This document shows positions 26,149-40,488 of a stretch of DNA of 40,543 nucleotides, in pieces. Location of the stretch: NCBI GenBank assembly GCA_028691375.1, contig JAQUZJ010000001.1, positions 1 through 40,543 on the forward strand, in the 5' to 3' direction. How positions within the stretch are numbered: position 1 is the stretch's first letter; the number at the start of each line of letters is the position of its first letter. The notes beneath the pieces are model-generated. The model was not told the origin of the DNA, searched no databases, and worked only from the letters and a program-made list of their open reading frames with translations. The stretch comes from Candidatus Altimarinota bacterium. Lineage in GTDB: Bacteria > Patescibacteriota > Gracilibacteria > BD1-5 > UBA2023. The translations under genes were made by a program, and so were the position numbers.

Positions 26149-26707
26149 AGAAAGTTTTAGAAGAAAGAATCATGAATAAACTGTAGGGAACGAATATTTT
26201 CGTTCCTGATTAAAAAAACTGAATATTATGTCTGATCTTCTGTACTTTTGTAACCAAAAGTACCAAAAGTTTTAGGGGGCTAAAGTTTCAACGAGGTAAG
26301 TGTTTGCTTTTCTACACCTGATCATTATCGGTTTAGCCCCCTAAGACCCCATTTTTCTAAGAGGGGAGGAATTGAAAAGAACAAAAAAATAGATCGTCAT
26401 TGCGAGATTTTTTGGAAAAAAATCGTGGCAATCCAAGTCCGCTAAAATGTCCATCACCCTGAGCGATAACGAAGGATCCAGAAATGTTAGGACTGCAATA
26501 TCTTTCGGTTAAGGCAAATACGAAAATTAAAGCTTTCTACTCTGGATTCTTCGCTCCGTTACACTTCGCTCAGAATGACGAACAAGATTGCCACGTCGCT
26601 ATCGTTCCTCGCAATGACAGACAGGAGGATTACCATTCATCGCGGCTGATAACTTCCTCGCGAGTGACGAAAAGAAAAAACTAAAATTATTTCATCACAC
26701 CAAAATC
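26149..26707. repeat. Repeat island, no genes
   Basis: About 560 bp, much richer in GC than its flanks, made of several palindromic units. Contents: a hairpin repeat at 26183-26206 (second copy of 17529-17554); GTACTTTTG..CAAAAGTACC at about 26238-26260; TAGGGGGCTAAA and TTTAGCCCCCTAA inverted at about 26274-26345; GTCATTGCGAG (26397-26407) and CTCGCAATGACAG (about 26609-26622) as outer inverted ends; internal ACCCTGAGC, GGATTCTTCGCTCCG and CTCAGAATGACG. The layout resembles dispersed bacterial intergenic elements with GTCATTGCGAG ends. Short open frames here are not genes. Confidence 0.75.
26183..26206. repeat. Dispersed hairpin repeat, copy 2
   Basis: TGTAGGGAACGAA with TTCGTTCC, one base shorter in the loop than the copy at 17529-17554. 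Confidence 0.8.
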
Positions 26708-27223
26708 ATGAATAAAAACTACGAATTAATTAAAAAAATATTATCAAAAAATTCAATTAATTTTGAAGAAATGGAACATCCTGCGGTTGAAACTTGTGAG
26801 GATTCGGCTAGATTTAGATTGGAAAAGTGAATGGTCTGACTTGGAAGTAAAAATATAATTTTTCATTGTAAATGAAATTTCTATCTTGTGGTTACTCATG
26901 CAGCGAAGCAAATAAAAGCTCGTAATTTCAAACACGAATTTGGGTCAAAAGATATAAGATTTGCGAGTCAGGAAGAAATAGATAACGCAGTTTGAGCCAA
27001 AATTTGATCGATTCCACCTTTTGGATTTGAAAATGAAAATTTGCCAATTTATGTTGACGAAGAGATTTTTGAAAGTGAATATTTTATTTTTAATCCATCT
27101 GATCCTTGTAGAAGTATAAGAATCAATACAAATGACCTAAGAAAGATTTATTCAAATTTATCTAATCCAATCAAATACTTTACTCATAAAGAAGACAAAT
27201 TTGAACTTATAGAAAACGAGTAA
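26708..27223 (+). CDS. YbaK/ProX-type aminoacyl-tRNA deacylase
   Basis: A 171-residue protein from ATG 26708 to TAA 27221. MEHPAVETCEDSARFRLEKG is the YbaK-domain start (..eh.p..T.e.aA...G), followed by GSKNIIFHCKGNFYLVVTHA, SQEEIDNAVGAKIGSIPPFG with the conserved GxxPFG, IYVDEEIFESEYFIFNPSDP and a final block ending ECxx-like tail. The family removes wrongly attached amino acids from tRNA (Ala or Cys from tRNA-Pro). The prolyl-tRNA synthetases in this window lack the usual cis-editing insertion, so this enzyme is a candidate for editing in trans; that link is inference. Confidence 0.87.
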
Positions 27224-27289
27224 TTTTATTTGGATTTTTGGAGGAAATATGTTAAAATGTGGGAAATTTTAATTAATAAATTTGTTATT

Positions 27290-30200
27290 ATGATTAATAC
27301 TGAAGAAATAGAAAACACAGCAGTACAAGAGTGAACAGACAAAAAAGAAGATAAAAACAGGGGTACCAAGAAAGAAAAGAAAGATGTAGAGTCTGCAATC
27401 AAAGATTTTGTTGAACAAGGAATAAAAAAAGAGTGAGTAAATTTTTATAATAGTGTTAAAGAATTTGCTGATAATCCCAATAGTAGTACAAATTCTATTA
27501 TATTAATGATTCAACAATTTGAAGAGTTTTTGACAACTAATAGTGAAGATTATAGTGGTAATTTTAATGTCAACAAGAAAAATGCCGGTCTTTTTCTTAA
27601 ATATGCATTATTTTTTGGTATTAATATAGCTAAATCTAGAGATATTGCCTTAAATTTGATAAAGAAAAGATTTGTAGACAAACGCAATGTATGATGAATT
27701 ATTTCTTCTACGGTTGAAGATTCTTTAAAAGAAGCTATAGAGAAAAAAAGTCAATTCGAGCTTGACGAAATAATTGATAATGATGATAAGAAAGCAAAAT
27801 TAATAAAAGAAGTAACAAAGGAAGAGGTATGAGATGATAAAAATTTTCAAAGGGCTGATAATTTTAAAGATGTTAAAGAAAAAATAAAAGCATGTTTTTG
27901 AAAAGATATTGAGGACACTAGTTTCAATGGCAAAAGAGAAGCTGTAACTGCCATTTTTGAACAAATAAAAAGATGTTCTTATGTCACAAAAGATGACATT
28001 ATGAGTTTATTAAAAGTTTTTGATGATAATGATGAACAAAAAAGAAAAATAGTAGAACACTATATGCCAGTGGTAACTATATGAGAATTGTTAGGATTTG
28101 GAGTTATAGAAGAAAATAAGATTTTGGAAATAATAAAAGAAATTATTAAAAATAATGAATGAATAAAAGAGATTCTTTGAATAAAAAATGTTAATGACAT
28201 TGAAAGTCTTAAGTTGATCTTAGCAGAAAAAAGTATTAGAGATATTAAACTCGAAACTAGTGATTTATTGGAAAATTTGAAGAATATTGATATTGAAGTA
28301 ACAAATGAACTTATAAATAAATGAGCTATCACTGAAATTATTGTGAAAACATATAATTGAAATATAGATGTAGAATGGCAAAAAAAGATTGAATCCCAAG
28401 TGAAACTTGAAATTACAGATGCAAATTGAAATCCAGTTGATCAAAATGTTTCTAATATAAATGAAGTGTGAACTGTGGATTTTGATTTTAAGAAGAAATT
28501 ATGAGAGTTGGAGTTAAACAAAGATAAAAATGAAAATGATAAAGATAAAAAACATTATGAAAACAAAGTAAAATGAGTTGATAAATTTTGAGATTTTGAT
28601 ATTCAAACTTGAGATTGATTTGTTTTTAGTATTCAAACTTGAGATGGTAAATATTTGAATTTTGAAGTATTGGAAACTGATGTTTGACCAGCTTTTGCTC
28701 CTTTTAAAAAAATAAAATATTTAGATCGTAATAGCCAAGAAGAGTGATACATAGATTATACAGATTTATATAACATAATAGCTAAGAGTAAATCTTGTAA
28801 AATAGAGTCAAAAGAAGAATTTGATGTTACTAAAATTGAGACTCTGAATACAAAGTTGGATTCTATAGATAAATCTTGAGCTGAATTTAAGTTAAATTCA
28901 GCTATGCCAGTGCATTTTACGCTTTGAGACATTAATGAATCTGGTAATGATAGTTGGGTGTATTCAGTTAAACAAGATAAAGATGGTAAACTTGAAATAA
29001 GAGATGCTTTATGAGTACTTATAGAAAACTGAGAATGATGAGAAATTAGCTTTGAGGATTTTTATAAAATTTTTGAATCATACAAATGAAAAAGAGTAGG
29101 TAGTATAATTACACCAGAAGGACTTTTAAATGCTTTAAAAAGTCATGGAACTACAGAAGATACTGAATATTGAAGTAACAGTCTTCAAAAAGATTATGAA
29201 AAAATGGAATTCAAAAATGGAAAGTTTGTGGTTAAAGGTGAAAGTAATGAAGAATGACAAGAATGATGAGAAAAAGAAAAAGAAATTTCTTATTTTAAAG
29301 GATCAAAATGAGAAATGCTCAAGATTGTTAGTATATCTTGAAATACAGCTAAAATTGAATATTGAAAATATAAAATCACACCTACGAAGGAAAAGAAGGA
29401 CGATAAACCAGAAACAAAACTTGATAAATTTATTCCAGAAGAAAAATGAGAATGAAAAATAGAATATATATATTATCTTATAAATAAATATAATTTAAAA
29501 CCATTTGATCCAACTTTCAAAAATATGGAGGAAGAAATGGAAGAAAAAATAAAAGCAAAAGAACTGGAATCAAAAAATAATTGGTTCAAATCTTTGCTTT
29601 CATGATGAATAAGTATTAATAAGCTTATGATGACTTGAAAAATTGTCAAGGAATCACTGGAAAATCATATAAAGCAAATGTCAGATGAACAAGCTGATGA
29701 AATGGCGGTAAAAATATGAGAAAAAATACCATTTTTTCCTGAAGATTTACAGTTAGTTTTAATATCAAGAAGACAAGAAAAATATAAAGAATTATTGGAT
29801 AAAAAAATAAATCAAATTACAATAATGTCGAGAAAAGAAAGGATGATAGCAATCAAATCAATACTAACATGCAAACAGTCTAAACCTTATGAAATTGTAG
29901 CTGCCATGATGGCATGTCTCAAAAAACATGGAACACTTTATCCTGATGAAATGAGAGAATATGAATGAAGTTTAGCTTGGACAAGAGCTTTAATGAGATC
30001 ATCAAATGATAATAGAGAGCCAAAAAGTTTAGCACAATATTGAAGTTATTGGAAAAAAGAATATCAAGAAAACAGAGAAGCCCAATTTAGAGAAGAAGAC
30101 CTTATAGATGAGTACTTATTATGATATGTACAAAAAAATAATTTATTACCACAAGATACAAATAAGAAATTTAAGGGTGCAGTAGCGGAGGGTATAAGAT

Positions 30201-31453
30201 CTGAAATGGAAGATTGAAGCAAAAAATGTTGAGACAGAGCAACTATGAGAAATAGGGTTGAATATTGAGTTTATCAAGTAGAAGTATGAGATATAGCAAA
30301 TGCGGTTTGATCTATTGCTTCTATATTTTGAAAAGAATGAGATGCAAGTGAAGCTCAAATGGTTCCATTTTTACTTACAATTGGTTGATTTACAGAGAGA
30401 ATGCCAGAAGCTTTGGTTAAAGAATATCAAGGTTTATTTTGGAAGTGACATTACAGTCCATTTTTATGGTTTTGTAGAGATAATGATATTAAAATGGTAA
30501 AACATGTAACATTAAAAGCAGCGTATTCTGTGTGAGCAGATCAGGGTAAAGCGTTAGAAACATTAATAGAAAGATGAACCAAGATAATGGATGCTAAAAG
30601 TAGAGTAAAATATGTCAGAGAATTAAGATCTTTTTGGGAAGAAAATTGAATAGCAATTAATCATGTTCTCAATTTTAGTAGAAATCCTGAATTTTTATTA
30701 AAACAAGAAAAAGATAAAGAAAACGATCCTATGTTAAAAGATTTTAGTAAAACACTGTATACATTAGTAACTCATGATCTTTTTAGACCAACAGGTGATC
30801 AGGTTGCTCAATATATTGCAAAGGATGACTTTTTTCCTTTTCTTTGAGAAGATCCAGGTAAAATTTTTGGTAAAATATGTTCAGCCTGAATAACTTCAGA
30901 ATGAACAATAAGTGGTAAACCTTACGATTTTTATAAAAATTATTTTAAATATACAAAAGAAATGATTCTAGGATTAGAAAAAACTTGTCCTAATAGATAT
31001 AAACACTTAACTAATGAAGAGCAAAAAGCCAAAAAATTAAAAGAAGACCAACTATTTATATATAAAATGGCAAATGAATGACTGAGAAGTTTTTTTGCTG
31101 AAAAAGTATCTGTATGAAGAGCCGGAGGTTTTTTTGAAGATAATAAACCTATAATGGATGAAAAATTTGTAATTCCTACTACCTATAATTGGAGAAATAC
31201 AGATGAATCAACCAGTGCAACTCCTTATTCAGATGATGAAATGGAAGAAGCAATAAAAAAATGAAAAAGTAGAGACAGTTTTCGTATTTCACCAAAAAAA
31301 ATAAAAACAAAGGAAGAAGTTGAGAAAGAAGCAGAGAAAAAATTTGATGAATATATGAGATGAGAATTAAAATGAGTAAAAAAAGTACAAGAAGAAATGC
31401 AGGATAGGACCAATAATGCTGTTTCTGTTGATGGTTATCTTAAGGTAGCATAA
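27290..31453 (+). CDS. Giant 1387-residue protein of unknown function
   Basis: One uninterrupted frame in code 25 from ATG 27290 to TAA 31451. No signal peptide or convincing transmembrane helix, so it is probably cytoplasmic. It is highly charged, Lys/Glu-rich and mostly helical. About residues 430-560 include two QTGDG stretches (FDIQTGDGFVFSIQTGDGKY) and look beta-rich; about 640-720 (ISYFKGSKGEMLKIVSISGN) suggest another small beta domain. The C-terminal half has helical blocks with TCKQSKPYEIVAAMMACLKK, MRNRVEYGVYQVEVGDIANA and LWFCRDNDIKMVKHVTLKAA. The end is Lys-rich. I recognise no enzyme motif. Upstream the YbaK gene is 66 bp away on the same strand. Large lineage-specific proteins occur in this phylum; a scaffold or interaction role is only a guess. 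Confidence 0.85.
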
Positions 31454-32015: not shown

Positions 32016-33410
32016 TTAAATTCTTCTAGAATAGTATGCAATTTCAGAGGTTGGCTTTTGACAATTTACACATTTACCTAAATCGCCTCAATTCTTATTT
32101 ATATATTCAAATCATACTATTTCTCATGACCTAACATTTTTTTCTATATTTTTTACACAATCTTCAGAAAAGCATAAATGTATTTTTGCAATTTTACCTG
32201 AATTAATAAGATTCTTTATATCCTCAGTCTTTGTACAATATATTGTATTTTCAATTAGATTCTTTTCATTGTTCATAAGTGCTTCACTTGAAATTTCTAA
32301 AAATAATTTATCAATTTCTGGAATAATATTATTTAGAGATATAAAAAGCGCCTTTTTATTATCTTGTCTAACTATTTTTATAATTTCTGAATCTAATTCT
32401 TTTTTTCAAATTTCAAATCTTATTGGCACTCATAATTTTTCATACTTTCCAAAACGTTTATAAAGTTGTCAGCTCTTTTTATCCACTTCAATTCTAATAT
32501 TAGATCATTTTAGTATATTAGCAATTTTATCAACATACTCGTTCAGTTCAATAATTGGGGAATCAATCTGAAATATAACTATTTGAATTGGAGAGTAGAT
32601 AGGTAACATAAATAAATTATTTTCATTGCTTAATAACCATATTGATATTAATATACATCTTTGAGAAAAACCAAATTCTATTTGATAAGTAAAATCTTTT
32701 ATTCAATTTTTGTTTGTAAAGGTTATATTGAAGATCTTAGAAAAAATCTGCATTTGCGTATATGTCACATTTAATAATGCAGTTTCTTTGGTTGGAAGAA
32801 ATACATCAAACGCATATTCAGTTTCTGCAACAGGCTTATTGGTCCAAGGTGGTCGAATAGTTTTTAATGTTGGGATTGCTAACCACTTCATAAAATCATT
32901 CACCATATCATTACAGCTTGATAACTCTCGCTCTACTTCTTCTCTAGAACTAAAAGCGGCATGGGCCTCAATAAAGAAATCATTTTCATTGGATCTCATA
33001 AAACCTCGAGTACTTCATCTGCGAAATATCGATCAAATTTGGAATACTTTTAAAGGAAGGTCATTATAAGTTTTAATCCATTTTCTGAACATTGGATATA
33101 TGGCACTTTCTCAGGATGGACGAAGTATTATTGATTCTGTAACTTTATATATACCCTTCTCAAAAGAACAAATATTATCATTTATATGATCAAACTCTTT
33201 TGAAGAGACTAAAAAAGGGAAAATATGCCTTTTGTAGTTATATTTTTCAAACAGAATGTTTAAATATTGTTCAGCTATGTTTAAAATCTTATATCAATCA
33301 GGAAGCCAAATAATAGCACTTAACGGATAAGAAGAATCAATAATTCAAGCTTGTTCAAGAAGAATATTAAATTTATTTAGACTGAGAGATTGTTCAGGTG
33401 AATTTTCCAT
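32016..33410 (-). CDS. Divergent prolyl-tRNA synthetase, archaeal/eukaryotic type
   Basis: A 464-residue class II synthetase from ATG 33410 to TAA 32016. Motif 2 region: ILRPSGESAIYPMFRKWIKT, LPLKVFQIGSIFRRGSTRGF and MRSNENDFFIEAHAAFSSRE match LRPTSEaxIYPMFxxW...LPLkinQw..vFRwE.ktrpflR..Ef...EaHt of archaeal/eukaryotic ProRS. The C-terminal zinc-like domain is present (CFSEDCVKNIEK ... GKCVNCQKPTSEIAYYSRRI), characteristic of that type. But key positions differ: TSHxLGQNFSK is YTQMQIFSK, and the motif 3 block GDxxGLVLPPxIAP is SNENNLFMLPIYSP, though GFSQR keeps the motif 3 arginine. It may charge tRNA-Pro in an inhibitor-resistant way or have changed function. Its start overlaps the symporter gene by 38 bp. 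Confidence 0.85.
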
Positions 33411-34835: not shown

Positions 34836-36047
34836 TTAAAATGTTAAAATTTTCACCTCATCACTATTTCTTGCTTTTATTTCGTATCATCATTTTTCAA
34901 TGGTTTTGTCTGAAATTACAATTCTATAAGGGATTCCTAATAAATCAGCATCACTGGCTTTTTGTCAAAATCAAATATCTCTATCATCTATAATTACTTC
35001 TTTTCATTCATTCTCAAGTTTTTTAGCGAACTCTAAAGCTTTTTGTTTATTGTCTCATATAATGATCAGATAATGACTGAATGGAGCTATATTTTCTGGC
35101 CAAACAAGTCATTTCTCATCAGCGAATTTCTCTGCAATTACTCACATTATTCTAGAAATTCCAATTCCATAACATCACATAACAATCTCATTTTGAATTC
35201 ATTTTTCATCAGCATATTTTAATCCAAATGCATTAGAGAATTTAGTACTTAACTTGAAAATATTTCAAGTTTCACTTGTTTTTATGATTTTGTATTCATT
35301 GCTTCAACATTCTACACATTTAAATGTCTCCTCTACAATTTCATTATTATGAGCTTGTCAACATTTTTCACATACATAGACATTATCTTCACCAATTTCT
35401 AGAATAGTCTGGAATTCATAACTGTATTTTGAAAATACTCATCCAGAAGCAAATGTATATAGAGTATCTTTTCAAATTCATAATCTATCAAATATACGAT
35501 TGTAGGCTCCATGAGCTTTTTCAAAATATATATCCAATTCTTCTTGATTCTTATGAAAGGAATACAAATCTTTCATTATAAATTCTCTTCCACGAAGAAC
35601 ACCTGATTTTGCTCTAGTTTCATTACGAAATTTGGTTTGGAATTGGTATACTTGACAATTATCCAAGTCTTTATAAGATTGTATGAATTCTTGCATTAAA
35701 GGGGTTACAACTTCTTCATGAGTTGGATTGAGTGCATATTGTTTATTCCCAGATCATTCAACTTTAAAAAGAACATCGACACTATCCCATCTTCACGTTT
35801 TTAACCAGCTTTCTTTTGGGCTAAATGATGACATAAGAATTTCTATAGCTCAAATTGAATTAAGTTCCTCTCTTACTATTTGTTTAATTTTTTCAAGTGT
35901 TTTAACTCCGTAATGAAGATAATTATAAGCTCAGGCAAGCTCTTGTCTTATATATCCCGCTTGTAACAATAATCAAGTTCATTTATTATCTGATCATCCA
36001 GGAACTGTTTTTAGTGTTTTAAATGGAAATTTTGAAAGTTGTAACAT
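34836..36047 (-). CDS. proS: Prolyl-tRNA synthetase, bacterial type without editing insertion
   Basis: A 403-residue class II synthetase from ATG 36047 to TAA 34836. Blocks: LLLQAGYIRQELAGAYNYLH (motif 1 region), YALNPTHEEVVTPLMQEFIQ (TxEE proline site), QTKFRNETRAKSGVLRGREF with IMKDLYSF (motif 2), SETGNIFKLSTKFSNAFGLK, IVMGCYGIGISRIMGVIAEK (motif 3), then a C-terminal anticodon-binding domain (ENIAPFSHYLIIIGDNKQKA, IDDRDIGFGQKASDADLLGI). The large INS editing domain of about 180 residues is replaced by a short zinc-ribbon-like segment (YVCEKCGQ...KCVECGS). It starts the three-gene proline cluster, 11 bp before the symporter. Confidence 0.94.
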
Positions 36048-36597: not shown

Positions 36598-39500
36598 ATG
36601 GCAGGTTCGATTGAGGAAGCATTAACAAAAGCATTACAACAAAAATGACAAAATGAATGCGATTTTATACAATCTTTAGAAACTATAAAAACTGAAGAGA
36701 ATCCCATCTTAGTAAATAGAATTTCAGAAGAGGAAACAAATAGTTGAGCACAAATTACAGAAGTAATTGAGCAGGTTGTTGATGATATAGTTTATATCTT
36801 GGGTAATCGTGAAAAAAAAGATTACAGTCAAGAGGATATTAATACTGTATTTTTTAGAGCTATAGATAGAGTAGATTTTAAATTTCTTTCACAAAACAAA
36901 ACAAGTCAAGATAAGGATAAATTATCTCTTTTATGAACTGATACAGAAAAAACTTCTTTATTTTCTTTGATTGAATCACCCACAACAGATTTGGATCTTA
37001 TACTCTTTAGACAATCTGTCATAGAATATATGCTAAGCAATAGTTGTAACCTTAAGGAATTATATGAATTTAAAAAATGAGCTTATTTTTTTGTAAATGT
37101 TTTGAATGCTTTGTTGAGGCCAGAGGAAAAAGATCATGTGGAATACTCGGAGAAAGAAAAAACACCAAGAACTATTATACGTAAATTTGTAGAAGAATCT
37201 GAAGCAAATAATATAAATACTAACTATGTTAAAAAGGAATTAGAAAAAATAGAAAAAGAAAGAGAAAAAATGAGTTGGCATGAAAGAGAAAATGAGTCAG
37301 ATAAAGATAAATTTAGAAGAGAAATTTTACAATATTTACATAAGTTTGATAAATGAATTAATTATTTAAATCAACTTATAGTTAGATTGGGTAAAATGCA
37401 CATTGAACTTTTCAAAAAATTAGGGATTGATTTAGAAGAAGAAAGAAAAAAAATAGATATAAATTCTATACAAGATTTGATAAATTTGGTCAAAGAAGGG
37501 GATAAAGTTTTGTTTAAAAGAACTGAAGATATAAAAAAAATAGAAAATTTGATAGAAAAATTATGAGTTCTTGTTATGTTTGCACATTTAGTTGAAGAAG
37601 ATAATTTTACTAAAGTAATTTATGATACTAATAATCCTCAACAATATGAACGCGGTTGGAATATTTTATATAAGAAAAAATCTAGCTGAACACGGGATAA
37701 AGAAACAAAAGAGCAAAAAGTTAATAATTCTTGTGCAGATTTACCTTGCTCTCTTCTTACTTGAAGTAATATGTGATGAAAGACATATTATCTAAGATCA
37801 AGTCTTTATATACAATTATGTGCACAATCTTTTGGCTATGTACCAGCAAAATGAGATGTGAATATGCATATTTATGATTGAATAGTTTATCTTGATAGAG
37901 CTTCAACAGATTCTGCAAATAACCTAAGTGCATTTTGAAGTGAGATTAAGCTTTGGAAAGAAGCTTTGAAAGTAGTAGAAAAAAAGAAAGGAAGAGTTTT
38001 TATTTTTACAGATGAAGCATTTTCAACAACTTCACCGGAAGATCAATCAAAACTTTTAAAGGCAATAACTCTTTATCTTAATGGTCAAAACGCAAGGATT
38101 CTTATGGCTACACATAGTGAAGAATTCATAGAATATGGTGAATTACAAAAACAAATTTGAGTTTATCATTTTGGAACTTGAATTTGAGATAATTGAGATA
38201 TAACTTTTACTCATAAATTAAAAGAATGAAAAGATAATTCTCATGCTTTGGAAGTAGCAAGAAGAATGGAGTTATGAAATAATATTGTAGAAACTGCTGA
38301 AGTATATTTTGCAGATCAAAATGTTAGTAAAGTTTCTTCTGAAAAAAGGGAATATCCAGAAATATTAGAATATGATGAACATACTAGAGAAAAATTAAAA
38401 GGATTAAAATCTAGTTTTTTGGCTTTTTCACCAAGATCAAATGAATTGATTTTTAGGCAAGAGGAGCAAAAAAGACGGAATTCAACAAAAATTATAAAAT
38501 ATTTGGACTGGAGATTTGAACCTGAAGAATGAGGACGTTATTCATGATCATATTCTAGAGAAGAAAAAAAATATGAAGAAAGAAAACCTGTAGATACTAT
38601 TTTTTCTGCTTTTAGTAAAGACAGAGATTTGATATATTATTGAGCGAGAGACCTATTGAATTCAATGGGGAAACATATTAATTTTGATTCTATTTTAAAT
38701 GATACAATAAAAATGATGTTTTTCTCAAATTATTCTCCTAGTTCTGAAGATATAAAAGAAAGACAAAAATTGATGGAACAAATTATGAATGCGGATAAGT
38801 TTCAATATTACAATTCTTTATTTGGTTCTGTAAATCATTTTTTATGGCTTTCTAGATTTGACAATTTTGATGAAAAATATTTTTTAGAATTTAATAAATC
38901 TATTTTAGAAAAAGCTTATAAGAATGATCTAAAAAGATCTAACTTTTATTCCAATAAAGAGGTTTTACCAGTGTTTCTGGAAGTTTATATAAGAATTTTG
39001 TCATTAAGTCAAAAGTTGGGTGATGATAGTAAAATAATCTGAAAAGCATTAGAAAAACTTACTAATTTGAAAGAAATTTTTGAAGAAGTTAACGGAATAT
39101 ATATCACACTAGAAAATGATCATAATCAGGACAGGGAATTTTCTAAAAATAATTTAGAATTGAGTCAGGAAGAAAAAGAATGAATTTTAACAGAAAGAAG
39201 AAATAAGGGTATTAAAATATTAAATGAAATAAGAGAGGTAATTAAATCAGTTGCAGAAAATTATAATATCTCAGTAGGTGAATTTGATAGCATTGGAGTT
39301 GTGGTGAGAAAAGCTATTATTTTAATACATGAAGAAATATTTGATCAGATTAAACCGTTTTCAATTTTTGATGTTAATCATGACATTGTAAATGAAGAAC
39401 TAAAACCAATTGAAAGATTTTTGAATACAGATGATTATAATTTTTATTGAGATAATTCTGTTCATGGCACCATTGTAATGCTTAGTTTAATTGATTGAAA

Positions 39501-40488
39501 TAATTATTTGGAAACTCTAATAAATGAACTCAGGAGCTTTGATTCGGTTTATTTTCATTCCATTGCCAATTATTTGGAAGAGATTTTTGAATATTATACG
39601 GAGTGAATAAATACAGGTCAGGATATTCTCGCCAATATAAAAAATTATATGGATGATGTAAATAGTAACAATAGATATGGCACATGATTATCTTCCTATG
39701 GAAATAGGGAATCTAATGCGGATTTTGAGACAGAAAGCATGATTTCAAAAGAAGTATTAAAGATTTTTACAATATTTTGTATTGCTCATGCCATGAAAAA
39801 TCAAGGATATGCCAAAGTAGATTTTAATTCTAAATGAGATCTAACTTTTACCAATCTTTGGAATATGAATCAACCAAAAAAAGAACAAATTCCAAATACA
39901 ACTTCTTTTTGAGATGATAATAAAATTCAACTTATCACCGGAACAAATATGTCATGAAAAACACACTATATGAAATCTCTAATTTTTGCAATATTGTCTG
40001 CACATGCTACAGGTTATGCTCCTGCGGAAGCTGCAACAATGCCAATTTTTGATAAAGTTCTTTATATAGATCGTGTGGATTATTCTGTTGATAGAACACT
40101 TAGTTCTTTTTGAAATGAGATTGAATATTGGAAAAAATTGATTTGAAATATAGAAAAATGACAAAATGTCTTTATTTGTGTTGATGAAGCATTTTCCACA
40201 ACCTCACCAAAATATCAGTCAGCCCTTACTTATGCTATTGCTGAATATATTTTAGCAAAATGACAATATCTCGCAATTGCTTCACATAATCATGATTTCA
40301 TCGAAGTTTTTGCCAATACCAATGACGGAAATATTGAGACTTTTCACTTTAAAACTCATGTTGATGATGAGGGTAAAATATCTTTTGACTACAACCTTGA
40401 AAAATGACATGAAAAATCGAATGCCATAATGGTTGCCGATAAATTATGATTTCCAGATGAAATTTTGGAGTTAGCGAAGTTGATGTAG
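36598..40488 (+). CDS. Tandem MutS-like protein with two ATPase modules in one chain
   Basis: A 1296-residue frame from ATG 36598 to TAG 40486. Two complete MutS-type ABC ATPase modules are present. Module 1: Walker A GSNMGGKT (389-396), then GYVPAKGDVNMHIYDGIVYL, ASTDSANNLSAFGSEIKLWK (MutS signature helix, cf. GxSTFxxEM), Walker B FIFTDEAFSTTS (468-479) and ILMATHSEEFIEY. Module 2: Walker A GTNMSGKT (1115-1122), GYAPAEAATMPIFDKVLYID, RTLSSFGNEIEYWKK, Walker B FICVDEAFSTTS (1192-1203) and LAIASHNHDFIEVF. Residues 1-380 and about 600-1090 are long, charged and helical, like MutS core/clamp domains. No mismatch-recognition domain or Smr nuclease domain is evident. All three glycines of the first P-loop are TGA. 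MutS family members normally dimerise to build two ATP sites; here both lie in one polypeptide. Substrate unknown. Confidence 0.93.

Follow-up and report, generated by a model that had tools for sequence, protein, structure and literature searches.

Can the two ATP sites that MutS-family proteins assemble from two chains be housed in one polypeptide and, if so, what might such a protein act on? The question is raised by a gene near the end of a 40,543-nucleotide stretch of DNA from Candidatus Altimarinota bacterium (contig JAQUZJ010000001.1; hereafter the window). In the MutS family each ATP site is completed by the partner module, and MutS proteins form asymmetric dimers even when their chains are identical, with the role of each site hard to tell. 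If the protein encoded here is a pseudo-dimer, nature has placed two sites that can be told apart in one chain, and either site could be mutated on its own within a single molecule. The family to which it belongs also adds a further deep branch to the MutS tree, in bacterial lineages that can lack mismatch repair.

The gene and its genetic code

The gene forms a single open frame under genetic code 25 (NCBI table 25) and its stop codon lies 55 bases from the end of the contig. Within it are 37 TGA codons, all of which are translated as glycine under this table; translation with table 11 breaks the frame into short pieces. Aligned homologues from organisms using the standard code have glycine in 49% of cells at the TGA positions, compared with 4.5% elsewhere, and at residues 323, 394, 447, 544 and 1120 glycine is present in 11 of 11 such homologues. 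Reading TGA as glycine is thus supported from within the gene itself by sequence alignment. A promoter scan gave a signal near chance, and the window yielded no Rfam or tRNA matches. A 1407-amino acid frame under code 25 is also seen in the window (27230-31453, + strand), with no Pfam match.

Two MutS-type ATPase modules in one chain

A reading of this DNA made from sequence alone had described a protein of 1296 residues with two complete MutS-type ATPase modules, each with a P-loop, a signature, a Walker B motif and a switch. All eight motifs are present in the one open frame exactly as described, and the features of the protein are as follows:

36598..40488, + strand: tandem MutS-like protein, 1296 amino acids
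36886..37722, + strand: helical core of the N half (residues 97-375), resembling MutS domain III and including lever helices, predicted mostly helical
37753..38304, + strand: N-module MutS_V ATPase (PF00488, 69.5 bits)
37762..37785, + strand: Walker A 1, GSNMGGKT (residues 389-396); K and S/T kept in 20/20 N modules
37918..37947, + strand: signature 1, NNLSAFGSEI (residues 441-450); Ser kept in 18/20 N modules
38011..38034, + strand: Walker B 1, DEAFSTTS (residues 472-479); D and E kept in 20/20 N modules
38107..38118, + strand: switch 1, ATHS (residues 504-507); His kept in 20/20 N modules
38395..39888, + strand: helical core of the C half (residues 600-1097), containing in the structure model two long lever helices and, close to its start, a beta hairpin
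39931..40488, + strand: C-module MutS_V ATPase, stop codon included (PF00488, 76.7 bits)
39940..39963, + strand: Walker A 2, GTNMSGKT (residues 1115-1122); K and S/T kept in 19/20 C modules
40093..40122, + strand: signature 2, RTLSSFGNEI (residues 1166-1175); Ser kept in 20/20 C modules
40183..40206, + strand: Walker B 2, DEAFSTTS (residues 1196-1203); D kept in 19/20 and E in 20/20 C modules
40279..40290, + strand: switch 2, ASHN (residues 1228-1231); His kept in 19/20 C modules

The score of each module is far above the Pfam MutS_V cut-off of 30.2 bits, and these matches are therefore not due to chance; the protein as a whole scores 149 bits (E 1.5e-43). The ATP-site residues of both modules are kept in 18 to 20 of 20 aligned sequences, the clearest exception being a 2733-amino acid protein from Omnitrophota (L073), whose C module is without Walker A and other site residues. 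When the N and C halves are compared as profiles, they match with a probability of 100 and 34% identity over 253 columns, but across 20 modules of each kind three aligned positions set the N modules apart from the C modules: S/T in Walker A, D/Y and E/H. The Walker A position is usually S in N modules and T in C modules (in the window protein both are threonine, T396 and T1122), whilst at the other two positions the window protein has D482 against Y1206 and E508 against H1232. That these differences are consistent indicates that the two ATP sites are not equivalent.

Outside the ATPase modules, each half looks like a MutS core. The MutS_III domain can be recognised by sequence in the N halves of three of 12 homologues (best E 1.6e-4). 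The modelled C half (pLDDT 81.8, pTM 0.78) aligns in Foldseek with MSH2, MSH3, MutS and MutS2 over ~660 columns (E ~1e-13), with an rmsd of >20 Å in most cases. The best 50 Foldseek matches listed for the whole-chain and C-half models alike were all MutS, MSH (MSH2, MSH3 or MSH6) or MutS2, with SMC/Rad50 proteins neither among them nor matched by Pfam in the window protein, which bears out the assignment to MutS rather than to SMC/Rad50. Pfam recognises neither the mismatch-binding domain I nor the connector domain II of MutS, whether in the window protein or in the aligned homologues taken half by half. Smr is likewise without a match in both and, as with the clamp domain IV, was not detected in the homologue halves; here, too, the sequence-only reading was correct.

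How the two modules are placed relative to each other is less certain. The whole-chain model (residues 97-1296) has a pTM of 0.66, which is moderate and lower than the 0.78 of the C half, compared with a rough estimate of ~0.55 for two halves without a predicted mutual arrangement, and suggests that the halves are positioned with partial confidence. Face-to-face packing of the two modules in one chain is plausible and an internal dimer is likely. The earlier proposal of an internal pseudo-heterodimer thus fits the asymmetric conserved residues and the lack of lone modules (see below), whilst for the packing in cis on which it also depended the model is no more than moderately favourable.

Relationship to known MutS-superfamily proteins

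Bacterial MutS (MutS1) and the eukaryotic MSH2-MSH6 and MSH2-MSH3 complexes share with the window protein the MutS_V ATPase, the helical core fold and two composite ATP sites, which in the eukaryotic forms are also non-equivalent. They are, however, built from two chains rather than one and possess domains I and II, neither of which was detected in the tandem protein; moreover, where MutS and MSH proteins have DExGRGTST the tandem protein has DExxSTTSP, and the two fall in separate clades. MutS2 resembles the tandem protein in comprising a core plus ATPase without domains I and II, but has one module per chain and an Smr and KOW tail. KamC, the ATPase that reactivates lysine 5,6-aminomutase, has a similar LS[SA]FGxEI signature and gives the best NCBIfam match to the window protein, but is a protein of ~507 amino acids with one module, located in a lysine-fermentation gene cluster. 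None of the corresponding NCBIfam models reaches its cut-off with the window protein: KamC scores 170.8 bits (cut-off 300), mutS1 137.1 bits (641.7) and mutS2 123.1 bits (400).

Two further groups of proteins invite comparison. Single-module MutS-like proteins of ~465 amino acids are common in genomes of the same order (L007-L022), in several cases in the very genomes that carry tandem genes. They have a MutS_V domain but, unlike the tandem modules, group with ordinary MutS, although much shorter, and have motifs such as GQSTFMVEM and DExGRGTST. A 3018-amino acid protein from Omnitrophota (L108:3675-12728) also has two MutS_V domains in one chain; its modules, which start ~480 residues apart, fall on the MutS/MutS2 side of the tree, outside the tandem clade, and it is apparently a second double architecture of independent origin. 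We found no tandem MutS described in the open-access papers to which our search was limited, which is consistent with the earlier statement that no protein of this architecture was known. The tandem family, conserved but rare, is apparently an undescribed branch of the superfamily, its members having two MutS units fused in one chain.

Origin and distribution of the tandem family

In trees built from single ATPase modules (branch support given as pairs), the N modules all fall in one clade and the C modules all in a different one, with support of 97/93 and 89/79, respectively, in one tree and 96/97 and 96/84 in a second. The N and C clades are sisters and their joint branch (100/100) lies outside MutS, MutS2, KamC and others, as anticipated by the suggestion of a separate MutS-like lineage. 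Constraining the window's own N and C modules to group together costs 85 log-likelihood units (p-AU 3e-85). Separate duplications in separate lineages are thereby rejected: the N/C pair arose once, before the carrier lineages spread. A single ancestral event, either a duplication or a fusion, brought two MutS core-plus-ATPase units together; the resulting halves have since diverged, are non-equivalent and, at the loci found, have always stayed together. The evidence is good both for the double architecture and for its having arisen once.

Two other origins were considered. The ~465-amino acid single MutS proteins can be discounted as parents of the tandem modules since they group with ordinary MutS, and a KamB-KamC fusion is rejected in that KamC cannot be placed as sister of the C module alone (p 0.003). 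A clade of KamC with the tandem modules is not rejected (p-AU 0.41), whilst the free tree places KamC with MutS2 (82/90).

Co-linear tandem homologues were found in at least 18 genomes of uncultivated bacteria, from Gracilibacteria/Peribacteria/Peregrinibacteria, Buchananbacteria, Saganbacteria and Omnitrophota, the last three being added by a scan of genome contigs. The expectation that code-25 genomes would encode such homologues held true: three further code-25 genomes of the same order have long co-linear matches with 23-31% identity and the same module order. The family also extends far beyond code 25: when 353 genomes of the class were searched with a profile, standard-code tandem genes came up in G202, G220, G198, G160, G270 and G255, that of G198 being interrupted by contig ends. 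The family is real, but rare and patchy: tandem genes are present in 3/380 genomes sampled evenly from the phylum of the window (the window's genome included), in 4/384 Omnitrophota genomes (one partial) and in 3/74 genomes of the phylum of Saganbacteria, one of which has three copies. Lone modules of the tandem lineage were found neither in the 353 genomes nor at the loci from the contig scan, and phage, plasmid and viral collections gave partial MutS-like matches or none, with no tandem among them. A copy from Margulisbacteria (G1118c) groups in both halves, with 100/100 support, with those of two genomes of the window's order (G032 and G048), pointing to transfer of the gene between phyla as a unit. 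Taken together, the sequences point to an ancient fused pair that was inherited as a unit and transferred across phyla.

What might the tandem protein do?

The reading that we consider most probable (roughly 0.6) is that of a single-chain clamp ATPase of the MutS superfamily, whose modules pair in cis and whose substrate is not a mismatch. By analogy with the two chains of MutS or MSH2-MSH6, the two ATPase modules would pair within the chain, each lending its signature and C-terminal helices to the ATP site of the other. Binding and hydrolysis of ATP would then open and close a ring formed by the two helical cores, and this clamp would most probably close around nucleic acid that is branched or structured, or around a ribonucleoprotein. 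Intramolecular pairing is the simplest account in that both modules retain the elements acting in cis and in trans, and the two are never found apart. Against it, two chains could swap modules, the C module of L073 has lost site residues, and no partner gene or conserved neighbourhood hints at a substrate; the net charge of the protein, which overlaps the ranges of MutS and MutS2, is uninformative on DNA binding. The broader proposal, that an asymmetric MutS dimer was turned into one polypeptide with both ATP sites in cis, giving an undescribed subfamily that acts as a self-contained non-mismatch clamp shared horizontally among candidate phyla including code-25 bacteria, seems to us evenly balanced.

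The modules might instead pair between two chains (N with C', or each module with its own counterpart) in a four-module assembly, the fusion doing no more than fix the stoichiometry. Relatives of MutS form dimers from separate chains, tetramers are known for E. coli MutS, and the several hundred residues that separate the modules would permit such an arrangement, but the conserved N/C asymmetry and the strict co-occurrence of the modules favour pairing of N with C, and the single-chain pTM exceeds the rough expectation for two unplaced halves; we see this as rather unlikely. What the clamp acts on is a separate matter. A mismatch is an unlikely substrate given the lack of mismatch-binding and connector domains and of a detectable MutL: neither MutL (PF01119) nor a second MutS_V protein (ordinary MutS or MutS2) was found in the host genome (G000); since this is 84% complete, the lack of MutL and MutS2 is a provisional finding. 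Membership of the MutS superfamily in a host without ordinary MutS might suggest a single-chain stand-in for MutS. However, the Saganbacteria and Omnitrophota genomes G355-G358 encode a high-scoring ordinary MutS alongside the tandem gene, and this, with the missing MutL and domains I and II, makes a role in mismatch repair very improbable indeed.

MutS2 and KamC provide precedents for MutS ATPases that do not bind mismatches, though the defining features of neither are seen here. MutS2 too is without domains I and II. It splits ribosomes that have stalled (PMC10897456, PMC12292046), and in a host without MutS2 the tandem clamp could similarly pry apart a stalled ribosome or other ribonucleoprotein. 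We think this unlikely: B. subtilis MutS2 is recruited via its Smr and KOW domains whereas the tandem protein has no Smr match, its modules do not group with MutS2, and so rare and patchy a distribution is not that of a general rescue factor. A KamC-like ATPase that remodels a metabolic enzyme would account for the best NCBIfam match and the common signature, is compatible with the unrejected KamC-tandem clade and recalls one Margulisbacteria genome in which two tandem genes directly follow genes of sugar metabolism. With a score under the KamC cut-off, a free tree that pairs KamC with MutS2, rejection of KamC as sister of the C module and no conservation of tandem gene neighbours, such a function is quite doubtful. 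More doubtful again is a horizontally spread accessory or anti-phage defence ATPase, as might be imagined from the patchy, cross-phylum distribution, the up to three copies per genome and weak PADLOC matches to PDC-M38A (42 bits) and mad8. Those matches span only parts of one ATPase module, no defence genes were recognised among the neighbours tested, and no tandem was found in the phage, plasmid or viral collections.

Neighbouring genes and the Omnitrophota members

Across homologues, no gene neighbourhood is kept beyond close relatives. In the window, two class II tRNA synthetase genes (32016-33410 and 34836-36047, both - strand; 464 and 403 amino acids) resemble prolyl-tRNA synthetases, each of a different type, and have a sodium:solute symporter between them; a free-standing aminoacyl-tRNA editing domain is encoded ~5 kb from this pair (26588-27223, + strand). 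At a Saganbacteria locus (L069:605-10050) two adjoining tandem MutS genes (1434 and 1433 amino acids) have a Fic-domain gene between them, and the tandem gene of G048 (L061) is flanked by several paralogous proteins of ~200-615 amino acids, one of which was tested and has no Pfam match.

Amongst the Omnitrophota members (L068:1304-5365, L071:174-5012 and L073:2088-10289), L068 and L073 start with a signal-peptide-like stretch, whilst towards the C-terminus L071 and L073 have a GGID[LF]NP stretch and, after it, PVI[IM]DI. In three Omnitrophota genomes the coding pattern has 11, 4 and 5 occurrences, against none for its reversed control and none in the window's genome; it may represent a sorting tag.
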